From contig NZ_JALJCJ010000001.1 of NCBI RefSeq assembly GCF_022899935.1, positions 642,053 through 706,052 of the forward strand: a stretch of 64,000 bases of DNA, in the 5' to 3' direction. Below the pieces are notes generated by a model. It saw only the letters and a program-made list of their open reading frames with translations, was not told the DNA's origin and made no database searches. This DNA is from Shinella curvata (GTDB lineage Bacteria > Pseudomonadota > Alphaproteobacteria > Rhizobiales > Rhizobiaceae). How positions within the stretch are numbered: position 1 is the stretch's first letter; each line of letters begins with the position of its first letter. Below, one piece after another: positions 23,505 to 38,150 of the stretch. Made by a program: the position numbers and the translations under genes.

Positions 23505-24077
23505 TTACATGCCCTGCGGGCCGCGGTTCATAGCGGCAATGCCCGTACGGCAGACTTCGGACAGGCCGAGGGGCTTCATGACGGCCACGAATTGGTCGAC
23601 CTTGGACGACTTGCCGGTGATCTCGAAGATGAAGTGGTCGACGGTCGCGTCGACGACCTTGGCATGGAAGGCATCGGCAAGGCGGAGCGTTTCCGCGCGC
23701 ATCTCGCCGGAACCGGTCACCTTGACCAGCGCCACTTCGCGTTCGATCGGCCGTTCCTGGCCCATCGTCTTGGCGCGAACCGTGAGGTCGACCACGCGGT
23801 GGACAGGGACGATGCGCTCGAGCTGCGACTTGATCTGCTCCAGCACGCTCGGCGTGCCACGCGTCACGATGGTGATGCGCGACAGGTGCGATTCATGCTC
23901 GGTCTCGGAAACCGTGAGGCTTTCGATGTTGTAGCCGCGGCCGGAGAACAGGCCGATGACGCGGGCAAGGACGCCCGGCTCGTTGTCGACGAGCACGGAG
24001 AGCGTGTGGCTCTCCGCGACCTGGGTTTCCTTGGCGATGAAATAGGCAGAACCGGTGGGTTGAAGGTGTGCGTTCAT
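23505..24077 (-). CDS. ilvH: Acetolactate synthase small (regulatory) subunit
   Basis: A 190-residue regulatory subunit. The N-terminal ACT domain (about 23-95), HTLSVLVDNEPGVLARVIGLFSGRGYNIESLTV, binds valine and gives feedback inhibition; the C-terminal domain (about 100-180) activates the catalytic subunit. It follows ilvI by 19 bp and should be co-transcribed under the ilvI attenuator. About twenty extra residues precede the ACT domain. Confidence 0.97.
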   Translation of the reverse strand: MNAHLQPTGSAYFIAKETQVAESHTLSVLVDNEPGVLARVIGLFSGRGYNIESLTVSETEHESHLSRITIVTRGTPSVLEQIKSQLERIVPVHRVVDLTVRAKTMGQERPIEREVALVKVTGSGEMRAETLRLADAFHAKVVDATVDHFIFEITGKSSKVDQFVAVMKPLGLSEVCRTGIAAMNRGPQGM

Positions 24078-24096: not shown

Positions 24097-25875
24097 TCAA
24101 ACGAGCTGGCGGCCCTTGGCGTCGATCGCGTTGGCGACCGCTTCGTCCGTGGCCTCGTCGGGCAGCAGCATTTCGTTATGCGCCTTGCCCGAGGGGATCA
24201 TCGGGAAGCAGTTGGCGAGGTTCGCCACGCGGCAATCGAAGATGACCGGGCGCTTGACGTCGATCATCTCCTGGATGGCGCCGTCGAGATCACCGGGCTT
24301 GTCGCAGGCAATGCCGACGCCGCCATAGGCTTCCGCCAGCTTGACGAAGTCGGGCATGGCTTCCGTATAGGAGTTCGACAGGCGGTTGCCGTGCAGCAAC
24401 TGCTGCCACTGGCGCACCATGCCCATGTACTGGTTGTTCAGGATGAAGATCTTGACGGGCAGATTATACTGGACCGCACAGCTCATTTCCTGAATGCACA
24501 TCTGGATCGAGGCGTCGCCGGCGATGTCGATGACGAGGCTGTCGCGGTGCGCGACCTGCACGCCGATCGCCGCCGGGAAGCCGTAGCCCATCGTGCCGAG
24601 GCCGCCCGAGGTCATCCAGCGGTTCGGCTGCTCGAAACCGAAGAACTGCGCCGCCCACATCTGATGCTGGCCGACTTCCGTCGTAATGTAGGTGTCGCGG
24701 TCCTTGGTCAGCTCATAGAGCCGCTGGATCGCATATTGCGGCATGATCACGTCGTCGCTGTGCTTGTAGGCGAACGAGTTGCGGGCGCGCCACTTGGCAA
24801 TCGACGTCCACCAGTCGCCCTGAACCGCCTTGTCGTAATCCTTCGCACCGGCGCGCCACAGGCGAACCATGTCCTCGAGGACGTTGCCGACATCGCCGAG
24901 GATCGGAACGTCGACACGGACGTTCTTGTTGATCGAGGACGGGTCGATGTCGATGTGGATCTTCTTCGAGTTCGGCGAAAACGCGTTCAGGCGGCCTGTG
25001 ATACGGTCGTCGAAGCGCGCGCCGATGCAGACCATGACGTCGCAGTCATGCATCGCCATATTCGCCTCGTAGGAACCGTGCATGCCGAGCATGCCCAGCC
25101 AGTTCTTGCCCGAGGCCGGATAGGCGCCGAGGCCCATCAGCGTGGAGGTGATCGGGAAGCCGGTGATCTCGACCAGTTCACGCAGCAGGCGCGAGGCCTC
25201 CGGACCCGAATTCACGACGCCGCCACCGGAATAGATGATCGGACGGCGGGCGCCCTTCATCAGGCTGACGGCCGCCTCGATGGCACGCGCATCGCCCGAG
25301 ACCTTCGGCTGGTAGGATTTCTGAGCCGGCGCGGCCGACGGCGGCGTGTAGGTGCCGGTGGCGAACTGCACGTCCTTCGGGATATCGACGACGACAGGAC
25401 CCGGGCGGCCGCTCTGCGCGACGCGGAACGCCTCGTGGATGATGCGCGCGAGGTCGTTGACGTCCTTGACCAGCCAGTTGTGCTTGGTGCAGGGGCGCGT
25501 GATGCCGACCGTGTCGCATTCCTGGAAGGCATCCGAACCGATGAGCGTGGTCGGAACCTGACCGGTGAGGCAGACAAGCGGAATGGAATCCATCAACGCA
25601 TCCTGCAGCGGGGTGACGGCATTCGTCGCACCCGGACCCGACGTGACGAGCATGACGCCGACCTTGCCGGTGGAGCGGGCGTAACCTTCGGCCATGTGGC
25701 CGGCGCCCTGCTCGTGGCGAACGAGGATGTGCTCGATATCGTCCTGCTGGAAGATCTCGTCGTAGATCGGCAGCACGGCGCCGCCGGGATAGCCGAAGAT
25801 ATGCTCTACGCCGTTGTCTTTCAGCGCCTGCAAGACAATTTCGGCGCCTGTCATCTGGTTTTCTGTTCCGCTCAT
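24097..25875 (-). CDS. ilvI: Acetolactate synthase large (catalytic) subunit, biosynthetic type
   Basis: A 592-residue thiamine diphosphate enzyme making acetolactate from pyruvate, the first common step of valine/leucine synthesis, and acetohydroxybutyrate for isoleucine. The catalytic glutamate lies in HILVRHEQGAGHMAEGYARSTGKVG (about 53-77); the FAD-binding middle domain includes GMLGMHGSYEANMAM; the ThDP motif is GDASIQMCIQEMSCAVQYNLPVKIFILNN (about 450-480). ATG 25875 is chosen because it is preceded by a purine-rich GAAACCG stretch and the conserved region begins 8 residues later. The frame is open far upstream but crosses the attenuator, so longer versions are not credible. Confidence 0.97.
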   Translation of the reverse strand: MSGTENQMTGAEIVLQALKDNGVEHIFGYPGGAVLPIYDEIFQQDDIEHILVRHEQGAGHMAEGYARSTGKVGVMLVTSGPGATNAVTPLQDALMDSIPLVCLTGQVPTTLIGSDAFQECDTVGITRPCTKHNWLVKDVNDLARIIHEAFRVAQSGRPGPVVVDIPKDVQFATGTYTPPSAAPAQKSYQPKVSGDARAIEAAVSLMKGARRPIIYSGGGVVNSGPEASRLLRELVEITGFPITSTLMGLGAYPASGKNWLGMLGMHGSYEANMAMHDCDVMVCIGARFDDRITGRLNAFSPNSKKIHIDIDPSSINKNVRVDVPILGDVGNVLEDMVRLWRAGAKDYDKAVQGDWWTSIAKWRARNSFAYKHSDDVIMPQYAIQRLYELTKDRDTYITTEVGQHQMWAAQFFGFEQPNRWMTSGGLGTMGYGFPAAIGVQVAHRDSLVIDIAGDASIQMCIQEMSCAVQYNLPVKIFILNNQYMGMVRQWQQLLHGNRLSNSYTEAMPDFVKLAEAYGGVGIACDKPGDLDGAIQEMIDVKRPVIFDCRVANLANCFPMIPSGKAHNEMLLPDEATDEAVANAIDAKGRQLV

Positions 25876-25931
25876 CGGTTTCCCGTCCGTCTCTTTCGTA
25901 TTTCCAGGGTGCTTATCGAATTTTCGGGCAT

Positions 25932-25956
25932 AAAAAAAGGCCCCTTGGAGGAGCCT
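25932..25956 (-). terminator. Attenuator terminator of the ilvIH leader
   Basis: On the minus strand AGGCTCC, loop TCCAA, GGGGCCT forms a 7-bp stem (one G-U pair) directly followed by seven T residues, 57 bases before ilvI. A terminator inside a leader before the first gene is the key feature of transcription attenuation. Confidence 0.85.
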
Positions 25957-25962
25957 GCTTAC

Positions 25963-26011
25963 CGCGCATGGGTGCTTTCGCCGGATGGTTACACCACCCT
26001 GCCCATGCGCG
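25963..26011 (-). promoter_or_regulatory. Protector hairpin (segments 1:2) of the ilvIH attenuator
   Basis: CGCGCATGGG (minus strand 26011-26002) and CCCATGCGCG (25972-25963) are perfectly complementary 10-bp arms; inside them GGGTGG and CCATCC can extend the structure. The 5' arm overlaps the last codons of the leader peptide, so ribosome position would decide whether this hairpin forms. The antiterminator pairing is not obvious to me by eye. Confidence 0.75.
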
Positions 26012-26048
26012 TTCCCACCACAAGAATAATAGAAGTCAGATTTTTCAT
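25989..26048 (-). CDS. ilv leader peptide, Ile/Leu/Val-rich (19 residues)
   Basis: The ORF reads MKNLTSIILVVGTRMGRVV and ends at TAA 25989-25991. It contains Leu-4, Ile-7, Ile-8, Leu-9, Val-10, Val-11, Val-18 and Val-19, the products of the pathway encoded downstream, as in classical branched-chain attenuators. Stalling at these codons when charged Ile, Leu or Val tRNA is scarce would prevent the protector hairpin and terminator from forming. No Shine-Dalgarno sequence precedes the ATG; a promoter just upstream places the transcription start within a few bases of it, so the peptide is probably translated from a nearly leaderless mRNA. Confidence 0.85.
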   Translation of the reverse strand: MKNLTSIILVVGTRMGRVV

Positions 26049-26056
26049 GGAGCGAA

Positions 26057-26085
26057 GTGTTAGCTACAAAGCCAACACACGTCAA
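26057..26085 (-). promoter_or_regulatory. Promoter of the ilv leader-ilvIH operon
   Basis: On the minus strand TTGACG (26085-26080), a 17-bp spacer and TAACAC (26062-26057) make a good sigma70-type promoter. The expected start site falls at about 26048-26051, essentially on the leader-peptide ATG. Confidence 0.65.
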
Positions 26086-26220: not shown

Positions 26221-28359
26221 TTGCTGAACAGTGATTTTCAGAGTTCCATCGTGGCGGGCGAACAGGAACGTCGGGATGATGCGTTGCAGGGCAACCGTCT
26301 GATGGGCCGTGTCGTGGCCTGCAACGGTTCGCACGCCACCATCAGCGCCGTCGCCGAAAGCGGGCAGACAGCACTTACCGAACTGTGGGCCGTCGGCCGC
26401 CTCATCTCGATTTCCGTCGGCCGCAATCGCATCGTCGCCCTCGTCTATTCCATGGCCACCGATCAGCAGAGCTGGGTGGAGAACCGCGACACCGTCTTCC
26501 GCATCGAGGTGGAGCTTCTCGGCGAAGTCCATGTCGGCCCTGACGGCCGCGAGGAGTTTTCCGCCGGCATCACTGACTATCCGCATCTCGGTGCCATCGC
26601 ACACCGCATTCGCGCCGCCGACCTCGCGAAGGTCTACGATACCGGCAAGAACGACGTCTGCGCCATCGGCAAGCTGACGCAGGATGAAAGCCTGGACGCC
26701 ACGATCCACGTCCCGTCCATGCTGGAAAAGCATTTCGCCATCGTGGGAACCACCGGCGTCGGCAAGTCGACCTCCGTCGCACTGTTGCTGCACAAGGCCA
26801 TCCAGGCCAATCCGCGCCTGCGCGTGCTGATCCTCGACCCGCACAATGAATTCGCCTCCGCTTTCGGAAATCTCGCCGTCGTCATAGACACGGATACGCT
26901 GGATCTGCCCTTTTGGCTGTTCCGGCTGGAGGAATTCGCCGAAGTGGTCTTCCGCGGTCGCCCGCCGGTGCCGGAAGAAATGGACATTCTGCGCGACCTC
27001 ATTCCCGAGGCCAAACGCGCCTTCCGCGGCTCCAGCGACAATGGCCTTATGCGCCGCGCCAGCGAAAAGAGTTCGGTAACGTCGGATACGCCGGTGCCTT
27101 TTCGCATCGCCGACCTGCTGGCGCTTATCGACGAGCGCATCGGTCGCCTCGAAGGCCGCGCCGAGAAGCCGCATCTGCGCTCGCTCAAGGTCAAGATCAT
27201 GTCGGCGATCAACGACCCGCGCTACCACTTCATGTTCTCCTCGAACACCATCACCGATACGATCCTCGACACCATCGCCCGCATCTTCCGCATTCCCGGC
27301 GACGGCAAGCCGGTGACGACGTTCCAGCTCGCGGGCATTCCGTCCGAGGTGGTCAATTCCGTCGCGTCCGTTCTCTGCCGCATGGCCTTCGAAATCGGCC
27401 TGTGGAGCAATGGCGGCGTGCACATGCTGGTGGTTTGTGAAGAGGCGCACCGCTACGTGCCGGCCGACCCGAAGCTCGGCTTCCTGCCGACGCGCCAGGC
27501 CATCGCACGCATCGCCAAGGAAGGCCGTAAATACGGCGTTTCGCTCGGCATCATCACGCAGCGCCCCGGCGAACTCGATCCGACCATCCTGTCGCAGTGC
27601 TCGACGATCTTCGCGATGCGCCTCGCCAACGATCACGACCAGGAGATCATCCGGTCGGCGATTCCCAATTCCTCGTCGTCCACGACGAGCTTCATCTCGT
27701 CAATCGGCAATGGCGAAGCGATCGCCTTTGGCGAAGCGGTCGCGGTGCCGATGCGCATGCGCTTTTCCCGCGTGGACTCAGACCGCCTGCCCAAAGCGAA
27801 CGGCACCGGCGTGAAGATCAACGAGGAGACGCCGCAAAGCGTCGACCTGCGCAACATCGTCGCGCGCATGCGCGCCATCACCGGACCCGACATTTCCGGT
27901 TTCCAGAACGCCTATCTCGCCACGCAGAGCCAGGGCGCCCTGCCAACGGGCTATGAGGACGCACCTTACGAGGACGAAGAAGGGTATATCGACACGCTGC
28001 AAAACGCAGCATCCGCACCACGCCCTTCAGGCACGGTACCGGCACAGGATCCCTATCGCCCCGCCGCGACCGCGACGGCGCCCGAGACGTATCGCCCGGC
28101 CGCTGCAGCGCCCATGCATGAGCCCTACCGCCCCGACATGCTGCCAGGTGCCGCCGGCGCCTACGATCCTCCGGCGCAGGAACGGTTCGAAGCCATCCGC
28201 CGCGAGCTGACGACGGATCAGGCGCGCCCTGCCGTCGATCCCTACCGGCAGCCGGCCCGCCCGGCCTTCGGCGAACCACAGCCGGAGCAGCCAAGGCGCG
28301 AAGGCTCGATCCGCGAACAGCTGCTCAAGAAACCTCTAAGCAGCCTTATCCGCCGCTGA
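26221..28359 (+). CDS. HerA-like (DUF87) AAA+ ATPase with proline-rich tail
   Basis: A 712-residue protein. A small beta-barrel HAS-like N-terminal domain (about 20-120) precedes the HerA/FtsK-type motor: Walker A VGTTGVGKSTSVALLLHKA (about 173-191), Walker B HMLVVCEEAHRYVP (about 402-415) and ITQRPGELDPTILSQCSTIFAMRLAND (sensor region). HerA ATPases translocate or pump DNA, usually with the nuclease NurA; no NurA gene is next to it here. The C-terminal 120 residues are low-complexity with repeated YRPA/PYR units. TTG 26221 is used because AAGGAG stands eight bases before it and no in-frame ATG is placed well. Confidence 0.9.
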   Translation: MLNSDFQSSIVAGEQERRDDALQGNRLMGRVVACNGSHATISAVAESGQTALTELWAVGRLISISVGRNRIVALVYSMATDQQSWVENRDTVFRIEVELLGEVHVGPDGREEFSAGITDYPHLGAIAHRIRAADLAKVYDTGKNDVCAIGKLTQDESLDATIHVPSMLEKHFAIVGTTGVGKSTSVALLLHKAIQANPRLRVLILDPHNEFASAFGNLAVVIDTDTLDLPFWLFRLEEFAEVVFRGRPPVPEEMDILRDLIPEAKRAFRGSSDNGLMRRASEKSSVTSDTPVPFRIADLLALIDERIGRLEGRAEKPHLRSLKVKIMSAINDPRYHFMFSSNTITDTILDTIARIFRIPGDGKPVTTFQLAGIPSEVVNSVASVLCRMAFEIGLWSNGGVHMLVVCEEAHRYVPADPKLGFLPTRQAIARIAKEGRKYGVSLGIITQRPGELDPTILSQCSTIFAMRLANDHDQEIIRSAIPNSSSSTTSFISSIGNGEAIAFGEAVAVPMRMRFSRVDSDRLPKANGTGVKINEETPQSVDLRNIVARMRAITGPDISGFQNAYLATQSQGALPTGYEDAPYEDEEGYIDTLQNAASAPRPSGTVPAQDPYRPAATATAPETYRPAAAAPMHEPYRPDMLPGAAGAYDPPAQERFEAIRRELTTDQARPAVDPYRQPARPAFGEPQPEQPRREGSIREQLLKKPLSSLIRR

Positions 28360-37738: not shown

Positions 37739-37839
37739 TCCACAGCGCGGCGCCAACTTCCGCAAATCCTTGTCACAAAGCCCTTTTCTTACCCGTCGGG
37801 AATGCCTATATGTGACGTGCTGCCTCGGCAGCTATGGCA

Positions 37840-38150
37840 ATAAACGGGCGGTGTAATAAACCCATTGGACCCGGGGGCGGTACCCGGCGCCTCCACCAAA
37901 AACCGGTCAACCCTTGACGGACCGGCTTTTGATGGGGGCGAAATAGGATCGACAAGGGCGTAAAGATCGACTTTTTGCTCGGCATTGTACCACCGTTATC
38001 GGGCTAAACTTGTAGTTGCAAACGACAACTATGCGGAAGCTCGTCTCGCTGCTTAATCGCGGTGTGACACTTCACTCAAAGTCCTGACGGGTCGCACCGG
38101 CAGGCGGGGTCCGAAGGCACCTGGCAACAGAAGCCTTCACCTTCTCCAAT
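37840..38150 (+). ncRNA. ssrA: Transfer-messenger RNA, circularly permuted two-piece type
   Basis: The acceptor piece comes first: T-arm stem CCGGG / CCCGG and a 3' end GCGCCTCCACCA ending at 37898, with the terminal CCA encoded. The coding piece begins GGGGGCG at 37934, which pairs with CGCCTCC of the acceptor piece (one G-U) to remake the acceptor stem, and continues with GAAATAGGATCGACA. The region between (37899-37933) is the excised intervening segment. The tag frame starts with GCA at 38018 and ends with TAA at 38054-38056, giving ANDNYAEARLAA. This order is known for alphaproteobacteria. The exact 5' and 3' ends are estimates. Confidence 0.93.

Follow-up and report, generated by a model that had tools for sequence, protein, structure and literature searches.

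Several described systems resemble the leader considered here. In Sinorhizobium meliloti, the trp attenuator RNA is described as starting at the AUG of its leader, with a terminated product that is itself a small RNA (rnTrpL/peTrpL; passages in PMC7298713 and PMC10117765). That system senses tryptophan and is reported there to act in trans; the ilvIH leader is likened to it by features, not by sequence. The Caulobacter ilvBN leader, as summarized in PMC4117421 from Tarleton 1994, has tandem Ile/Val codons and a Rho-independent terminator, and so matches the ilvIH leader in the codons, the terminator and the acetolactate synthase operon that follows. The E. coli leaders ilvL, leuL and thrL also share with it a peptide rich in the regulated amino acid and a set of competing hairpins. 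In addition, an 'ilvIH cis regulatory' element was listed in 2008 beside SMc01431 (ilvIH) of S. meliloti, citing Vitreschak et al. 2004 (PMC2573895); this is the same type of cis element beside the same operon. Beyond that element as cited there, we add a comparison of relatives for a start at the AUG and a description of copies that precede a transporter.

The window, the whole stretch of 64,000 nucleotides of Shinella curvata DNA that was analysed, carries ilvI (acetolactate synthase large subunit, 592 aa, 24097..25875, minus strand, with the ATG at 25875 as the chosen start) and ilvH (small subunit, 190 aa, 23505..24077, minus strand). Both were identified with Pfam and NCBIfam, the match to NCBIfam PRK09107 scoring 1227 bits against a cut-off of 974. 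The closest named IlvI among the matches listed was that of Shinella sp. CPCC 101442, at 98% identity. Some 170 bp separate the predicted start of the leader from a divergent 712-aa ORF upstream of it (26221-28359, plus strand), which places the leader promoter in a divergent intergenic region. Elsewhere in the window, 37780-38141 (plus strand) is an alphaproteobacterial tmRNA gene (306.7 bits), to which the permuted tmRNA family also matches.

The sequence-only reading had proposed a promoter, a 19-codon peptide, a 10-bp protector hairpin and a seven-T terminator ahead of ilvIH, and inspection and folding of the minus strand confirmed all four. The -35 element TTGACG lies at 26085-26080 and the -10 element TAACAC at 26062-26057, with a 17-nt spacer between them and 8 nt separating the latter from the leader ATG; the corresponding consensus in relatives, CTA[A/T]CA, is offset one base upstream. 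A scan with a generic sigma-70 consensus found no promoter at the window leader, TAACAC being a poor version of TATAAT, and support for the promoter consequently comes from its conservation among relatives. Transcription is predicted to start within 26048..26051, position 26048, the A of the AUG, being the likeliest base. The leader ORF (25989..26048, minus strand; ATG 26048-26046, stop codon TAA 25991-25989) encodes the 19-residue peptide MKNLTSIILVVGTRMGRVV, in which 8 of the 18 residues after Met are Ile, Leu or Val. Folding placed the 5' arm of the protector, CGCGCATGGG, at 26011-26002 and its 3' arm, CCCATGCGCG, at 25972-25963, the two forming 10 perfect pairs; the 3' arm also takes part in a weak antiterminator candidate. 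An inner hairpin (25983..25999) lies inside the protector, and its loop overlaps the stop codon. The intrinsic terminator stem-loop, AGGCTCCT-CCA-AGGGGCCT, occupies 25956-25938 and runs into seven T (25938-25932), where the attenuated RNA is predicted to end. The generic scan that detected this terminator scored one hit against a mean of 0.8 in shuffled sequence, and so by itself proves nothing. Counted from the AUG through the last T, the RNA measures 117 nt; it folds with a z-score of -3.93, and none of 200 shuffles was equally stable. The proposed short attenuated RNA corresponds to a stretch that matches a catalogued RNA family, its predicted length being corrected from about 110 nt to 117.

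The family in question is Rfam RF02502, "Rhizobiales sRNA Atu_C8". Positions 25922..26043 (minus strand) of the window matched all of the model (positions 1-122 of 122) with 111.9 bits, against a gathering score of 50, and an E value of 7.7e-24, the hairpins and terminator being common to both. The match starts 5 nt inside the window ORF, the window leader being one codon longer than the model. The Atu_C8 RNA was reportedly detected by sequencing in A. tumefaciens by Wilms and co-workers in 2012, and we presume that the Rfam name and type reflect that RNA. Rfam types the family 'Gene; sRNA', whereas here it is read as an attenuator ahead of ilvIH whose near-leaderless ORF is coding. Two further matches on the terminator, isrD (18.0 bits) and ctRNA_p42d (17.6 bits), fell below the Rfam cut-off and were set aside as hairpin look-alikes. 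Given the full match to RF02502 and the 2008 listing in S. meliloti, the ilvIH cis element is already known and not new. A statement that Atu_C8 is the ilvIH attenuator was not found in the titles, abstract openings and cited passages of open-licence papers. RF02502 appears in PMC5913331 only among listed test families; 'ilv' is absent from the main texts of PMC2873474, PMC4201532, PMC3927594 and PMC2881028; and its absence from the main text of the S. meliloti small-proteome paper (PMC10117765) implies that the ilvIH leader is unreported there.

Within the family, the distribution of RF02502 follows that of ilvI. At E ≤ 0.001 the model matched 146 of 151 family genomes, 141 of them with scores above the cut-off. 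In the order it matched 161 of 297 genomes, a set that overlaps in part with the family set, and 49 scored above the cut-off. It matched four of 190 genomes drawn from the class: the window's own, another from its order, and two from other orders, of which one matched strongly. It was found in none of 14 control genomes; we take a Caulobacter to be among these, which would set the Caulobacter leader apart from this family. The five family genomes without an RF02502 leader are 1.2-2.0 Mb in size, and IlvI gave no match in three of them, a 27% relative in one (G005) and broken fragments in another (G091). In genomes where the leader scored weakly, IlvI lay directly downstream at 71-80% identity in all seven tested. 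Within the family, then, the leader is missing where a true IlvI is missing. Two genomes of family f11 (G406 and G369; loci L158/L159) each had two weak RF02502 matches ~2.7 kb apart on the same strand.

This co-occurrence bears on whether Atu_C8 could be an independent sRNA gene that has its own promoter, happens to lie upstream of ilvI and has nothing to do with ilvIH control. Such a gene would suit how Rfam names and types the family, some of whose other copies do stand before different genes, as described below. Against it, no leader occurs in the family where there is no true IlvI, the leader encodes a run of Ile, Leu and Val codons, and ilvI, encoded on the same strand, begins 57 nt past the T run, a generic scan showing no further terminator in that gap. 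We regard a stand-alone gene as highly improbable, and treat the element as a leader of ilvIH in what follows.

For the comparison of leader starts, an ilvI-like match was present in 205 of 209 loci; the 200 at ≥60% identity were used, of which 194 had a leader candidate, 178 of them distinct. Among 144 distinct leaders from the family or from named relatives, TTGA lay 33-40 nt before the leader ATG in 133, a fraction somewhat inflated because candidates were picked by branched-chain content with a bonus for an ATG at that distance from TTGA. The spacing held for 74 of 74 distinct named relatives (the 80 named loci are relatives by IlvI and were not assigned to the family one by one, and some are metagenome bins) and for 59 of 70 other distinct same-family loci, leaving 11 of those 70 without it. 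A Shine-Dalgarno-like motif was absent from 131 of the 133 leaders with the spacing.

Dropping L111 and L176, in which no T run was found, reduced the aligned set to 131 leaders, 125 of them distinct, including the window's own (L001). In these 125, selected for TTGA 33-40 nt before the ATG, the distance was 37 nt in 78 leaders, 38 in 21, 36 in 19, 39 in four and 35 in three. The bases after TTGA, which were free in the selection, were C (0.99) and G (0.81). The -10 element of relatives reads as given above and the stretch from it to the ATG is C-rich, which makes the A of the AUG the likeliest purine at which to start. In two Agrobacterium leaders (L063 and L065), the G of the ATG is the first base matched by RF02502, so that the catalogued RNA starts at the AUG to within 2 nt; we infer that this boundary reflects a mapped 5' end. 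The window leader is thus likely to start at its AUG, judging from sequence comparison. Leaderless or nearly leaderless messages are described in both A. tumefaciens, where 12 of 675 genes had a 5' UTR of ≤10 nt (Lee 2013), and S. meliloti, with 171 leaderless starts (Schlueter 2013); 'ilv' is absent from the main text of either paper.

A conventional leader, transcribed from farther upstream and with its ATG either translated from a ribosome-binding site or untranslated, would account for the empty generic promoter scan. It also has a counterpart outside the family, where 21 of the 34 distinct loci have their leader candidate farther from TTGA and some of them carry a Shine-Dalgarno-like motif; these out-of-family counts are rough, the choice of leader in distant families being partly wrong (e.g., L209), and one such family (f23) has the TTGA spacing in nine of nine. 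The narrow 35-39 nt spacing in the selected leaders, the near absence of Shine-Dalgarno-like motifs and the beginning of RF02502 at the AUG in Agrobacterium all speak against a conventional leader, which seems to us improbable. We therefore retain a start at or very near the AUG as the preferred reading.

The codon content of the leaders points to branched-chain amino acids, and to valine in particular. Leaders were aligned by codon (124 of them, L144 having been dropped) on the branched-chain pair that precedes G-x-R; this pair is Ile, Leu or Val by construction, and the leaders had also been chosen for branched-chain content. The two codons preceding the anchoring pair encoded Ile, Leu or Val in 122 and 123 of the 124. 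The last codon of the pair was GTG in 84, GTA in 39 and CTT in one, and never GTC or GTT, whereas the 47 Val codons of the window ilvI comprise 33 GTC, seven GTG, six GTT and one GTA. This difference suggests that the leader may sense valine through the tRNA that reads GUA/GUG codons, relatives being non-independent samples of it.

Both hairpins covary. Compensatory changes occurred at three pairs of the protector (T-A in 112 leaders and C-G in 13; G-C in 111 and A-T in 11; G-C in 108 and C-G in 12) and at two pairs of the inner hairpin (A-T in 70 and G-C in 47; T-A in 80 and C-G in 42). Across the alignment, 1208 of 1250 cells of the protector and 697 of 748 of the inner hairpin were paired, the outermost pair of each being often unpaired in relatives. 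Sliding one arm by one column lowered the paired fraction to 0.24-0.25 for the protector and 0.37-0.45 for the inner hairpin, and slides of two or three columns gave 0.20-0.63 and 0.23-0.51, respectively. The terminator was excluded as covariation evidence, owing to misalignment from differing loop lengths: its arms were 0.87 paired in register and again 0.87 when slid by -1. An intrinsic terminator was present in the aligned relatives, L111 and L176 having been left out of this set beforehand for want of a T run.

We consider it very probable that the window leader is a ribosome-mediated transcription attenuator of ilvIH whose RNA starts at, or within ~3 nt of, its AUG. RNA polymerase would start at that point and a ribosome would load on the leaderless or near-leaderless message. 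With branched-chain aminoacyl-tRNA plentiful, above all the GUG/GUA valine tRNA, the leader would be translated and the protector would form, and transcription would stop at the T run to leave an RNA of ~117 nt, the Shinella form of Atu_C8. A ribosome stalled on the last Val codons would instead cover the 5' arm of the protector, and the sequence thereby freed would pair with the 5' arm of the terminator, allowing transcription to continue into ilvIH. The earlier suggestions of a branched-chain attenuator and of a near-leaderless start have both gained comparative support, the first from ilvI co-occurrence, codon content and hairpin covariation, the second from the TTGA-AUG spacing, the lack of Shine-Dalgarno-like motifs in most relatives and the RF02502 boundary.

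The switch between the two outcomes was examined by folding. In an equilibrium test in which a ribosome masked each leader codon in turn, the terminator kept a probability of 0.95-0.97 in the window. The proven E. coli attenuators thrL, leuL and ilvL failed in the same way (0.83-1.0), and the test was dropped for that reason; in 42 of 174 relatives it gave values below 0.5, many of them 0.00 even at the leader end, which we attribute to the register of the terminator stem. It was replaced by folding the RNA before the 3' arm of the terminator has been transcribed, a test that the E. coli controls pass: pairing of the terminator's left arm on most control codons was 0.75 for thrL, 0.60 for leuL and 0.85 for ilvL, and 0.01-0.03 at the stop codon. 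In the same test, the median pairing in 109 of the 125 relatives (the remainder lacked a terminator stem or the G-x-R pattern) was lowest, 0.02-0.03, when the ribosome stood two or three codons short of the last Val; it rose to 0.30 at one codon short and to 0.53 on the last Val itself, was 0.32-0.51 past that codon, and without a ribosome came to 0.31. The window leader itself gave 0.37 at the last Val, 0.37 at the first Ile and 0.40 at Leu4. Stalling on the last valines may thus favour sequestration of the terminator 5' arm in these folds, as the classical model needs; the predicted effect is modest, and the valine stall is only modestly separated because pairing persists beyond the last Val and without a ribosome. 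The E. coli leaders accordingly have stronger antiterminators than the ilvIH leader, whose candidate is worth ~-4 kcal/mol against -12 for the terminator, and the weakly supported antiterminator is the least certain part of the model. One pairing considered as a general antiterminator, CC(A)UGC:GCAGG, fits the window, but leaders of the Agrobacterium type read CGAGG and have no CAGG, so that it is at best one of several pairings. The additional pairing that Rfam marks with brackets is broken in L151 and partly so in the window; no conclusion was drawn from it.

Attenuation of ilvIH would leave room for a second function, in which the terminated RNA, the 19-aa peptide or both also regulate other genes in trans, as suggested by analogy. 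The precedent is rnTrpL/peTrpL, as described in passages of PMC7298713, PMC10117765 and PMC7143759, and the Rfam type 'Gene; sRNA' would fit. In the alignments, judged by eye, GTGTAACC, GGCGA-AGC and similar loop and linker stretches seem more conserved than base pairing demands, but the conservation of the second half of the element is at least partly explained by the hairpins and the overlying reading frame. We hold a role in trans to be a tentative possibility, rather doubtful than probable; if the ilvIH RNA or peptide did act in this way, the trp case would no longer be alone.

The window's own genome has a single RF02502 copy, and a search at 1e-80 did not find in it the MFS transporter described next. 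Second copies are common in the genus of G128, which we take to be Rhizobium: at least two RF02502 matches were present in 95 of 120 genomes, and by eye we counted two copies in 93, three in two and one in 25. Thirty second-copy loci were taken from the best RF02502 matches listed with coordinates in this putative Rhizobium. In 27 of these the gene downstream encodes a Bcr/CflA-like MFS transporter (64-72% identity to the L151 protein), in two it encodes an acetolactate synthase paralogue (71-73% to IlvI), and one proved to be a primary-type ilvI (86.5%). TTGAC lay 36-37 nt before the ATG in all 30. The MFS-linked second leaders (L218-L241, L245-L247, L151 and L152) have the promoter spacing, a Val-rich peptide and a terminator. 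The second leaders that stand before the paralogue of the acetolactate synthase large subunit (71-73% identical to IlvI), rather than a transporter, are L150, L242 and L243. The commonest MFS-linked peptide, MNTALVLVVVGRRMGRMV, was encoded by eight of 33 leaders; in the MFS-linked set the protector hardly varies, and changes on both sides are seen in the inner hairpin.

The transporter tracks the extra copy. At E ≤ 1e-120 it turned up in 62 of 95 genomes with several copies, two of which carry it with an in-frame stop, and in none of the 25 single-copy genomes; the Fisher p is 4e-10 if genomes are treated as unrelated. Relaxing the threshold to 1e-80 brought up a relative in two of the 25 single-copy genomes, one at 50% identity and one a partial match at 67%. 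Four copies in family f6 (L120, L121, L248 and L250) likewise precede a related MFS transporter; the L120 and L151 proteins are 49% identical, and the NCBIfam Bcr/CflA cut-off is reached by the former and missed by the latter. In one genus of another order, RF02502 scored over the cut-off in five of five genomes (L258, L260-L263), in each of them before a transporter 65-68% identical to the L120 protein; the leader peptides there keep Val-Val-Gly and the 36-nt spacing, and vary in Ile/Leu content. That leader and MFS transporter also occur together outside the family suggests a horizontally transferred or an old module. Transporter relatives 71-74% identical also occur in plasmid records H1-H8, from large replicons of Rhizobium and one Phyllobacterium. 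A literature search found no paper on RF02502 copies before an MFS transporter.

These copies raise the possibility, to which we give an even chance, that Atu_C8 is a portable, near-leaderless, valine-centred cassette. Such a cassette, complete with promoter and peptide, would have been recruited by at least three lineages for a Bcr/CflA-like MFS transporter and by some Rhizobium for a second acetolactate synthase, and it would turn these genes on as branched-chain aminoacyl-tRNA becomes scarce. What is observed is the linkage of the copies and their intact anatomy; any function or substrate named for the transporter would be a guess.

For the family, the comparisons assign a likely function to the catalogued 'sRNA' Atu_C8, namely to attenuate ilvIH, and provide family-wide comparative evidence that ilvIH leaders start at their AUG. 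What most deserves to be followed is the recruitment of the element to a transporter; the MFS-linked copies offer a testable link between branched-chain starvation and a rhizobial transporter. If the cassette is real, the transporter or the spare enzyme would come on in the presence of an acetolactate synthase inhibitor, a valine analogue or excess valine, and the Atu_C8 family would link amino-acid sensing to efflux or uptake.
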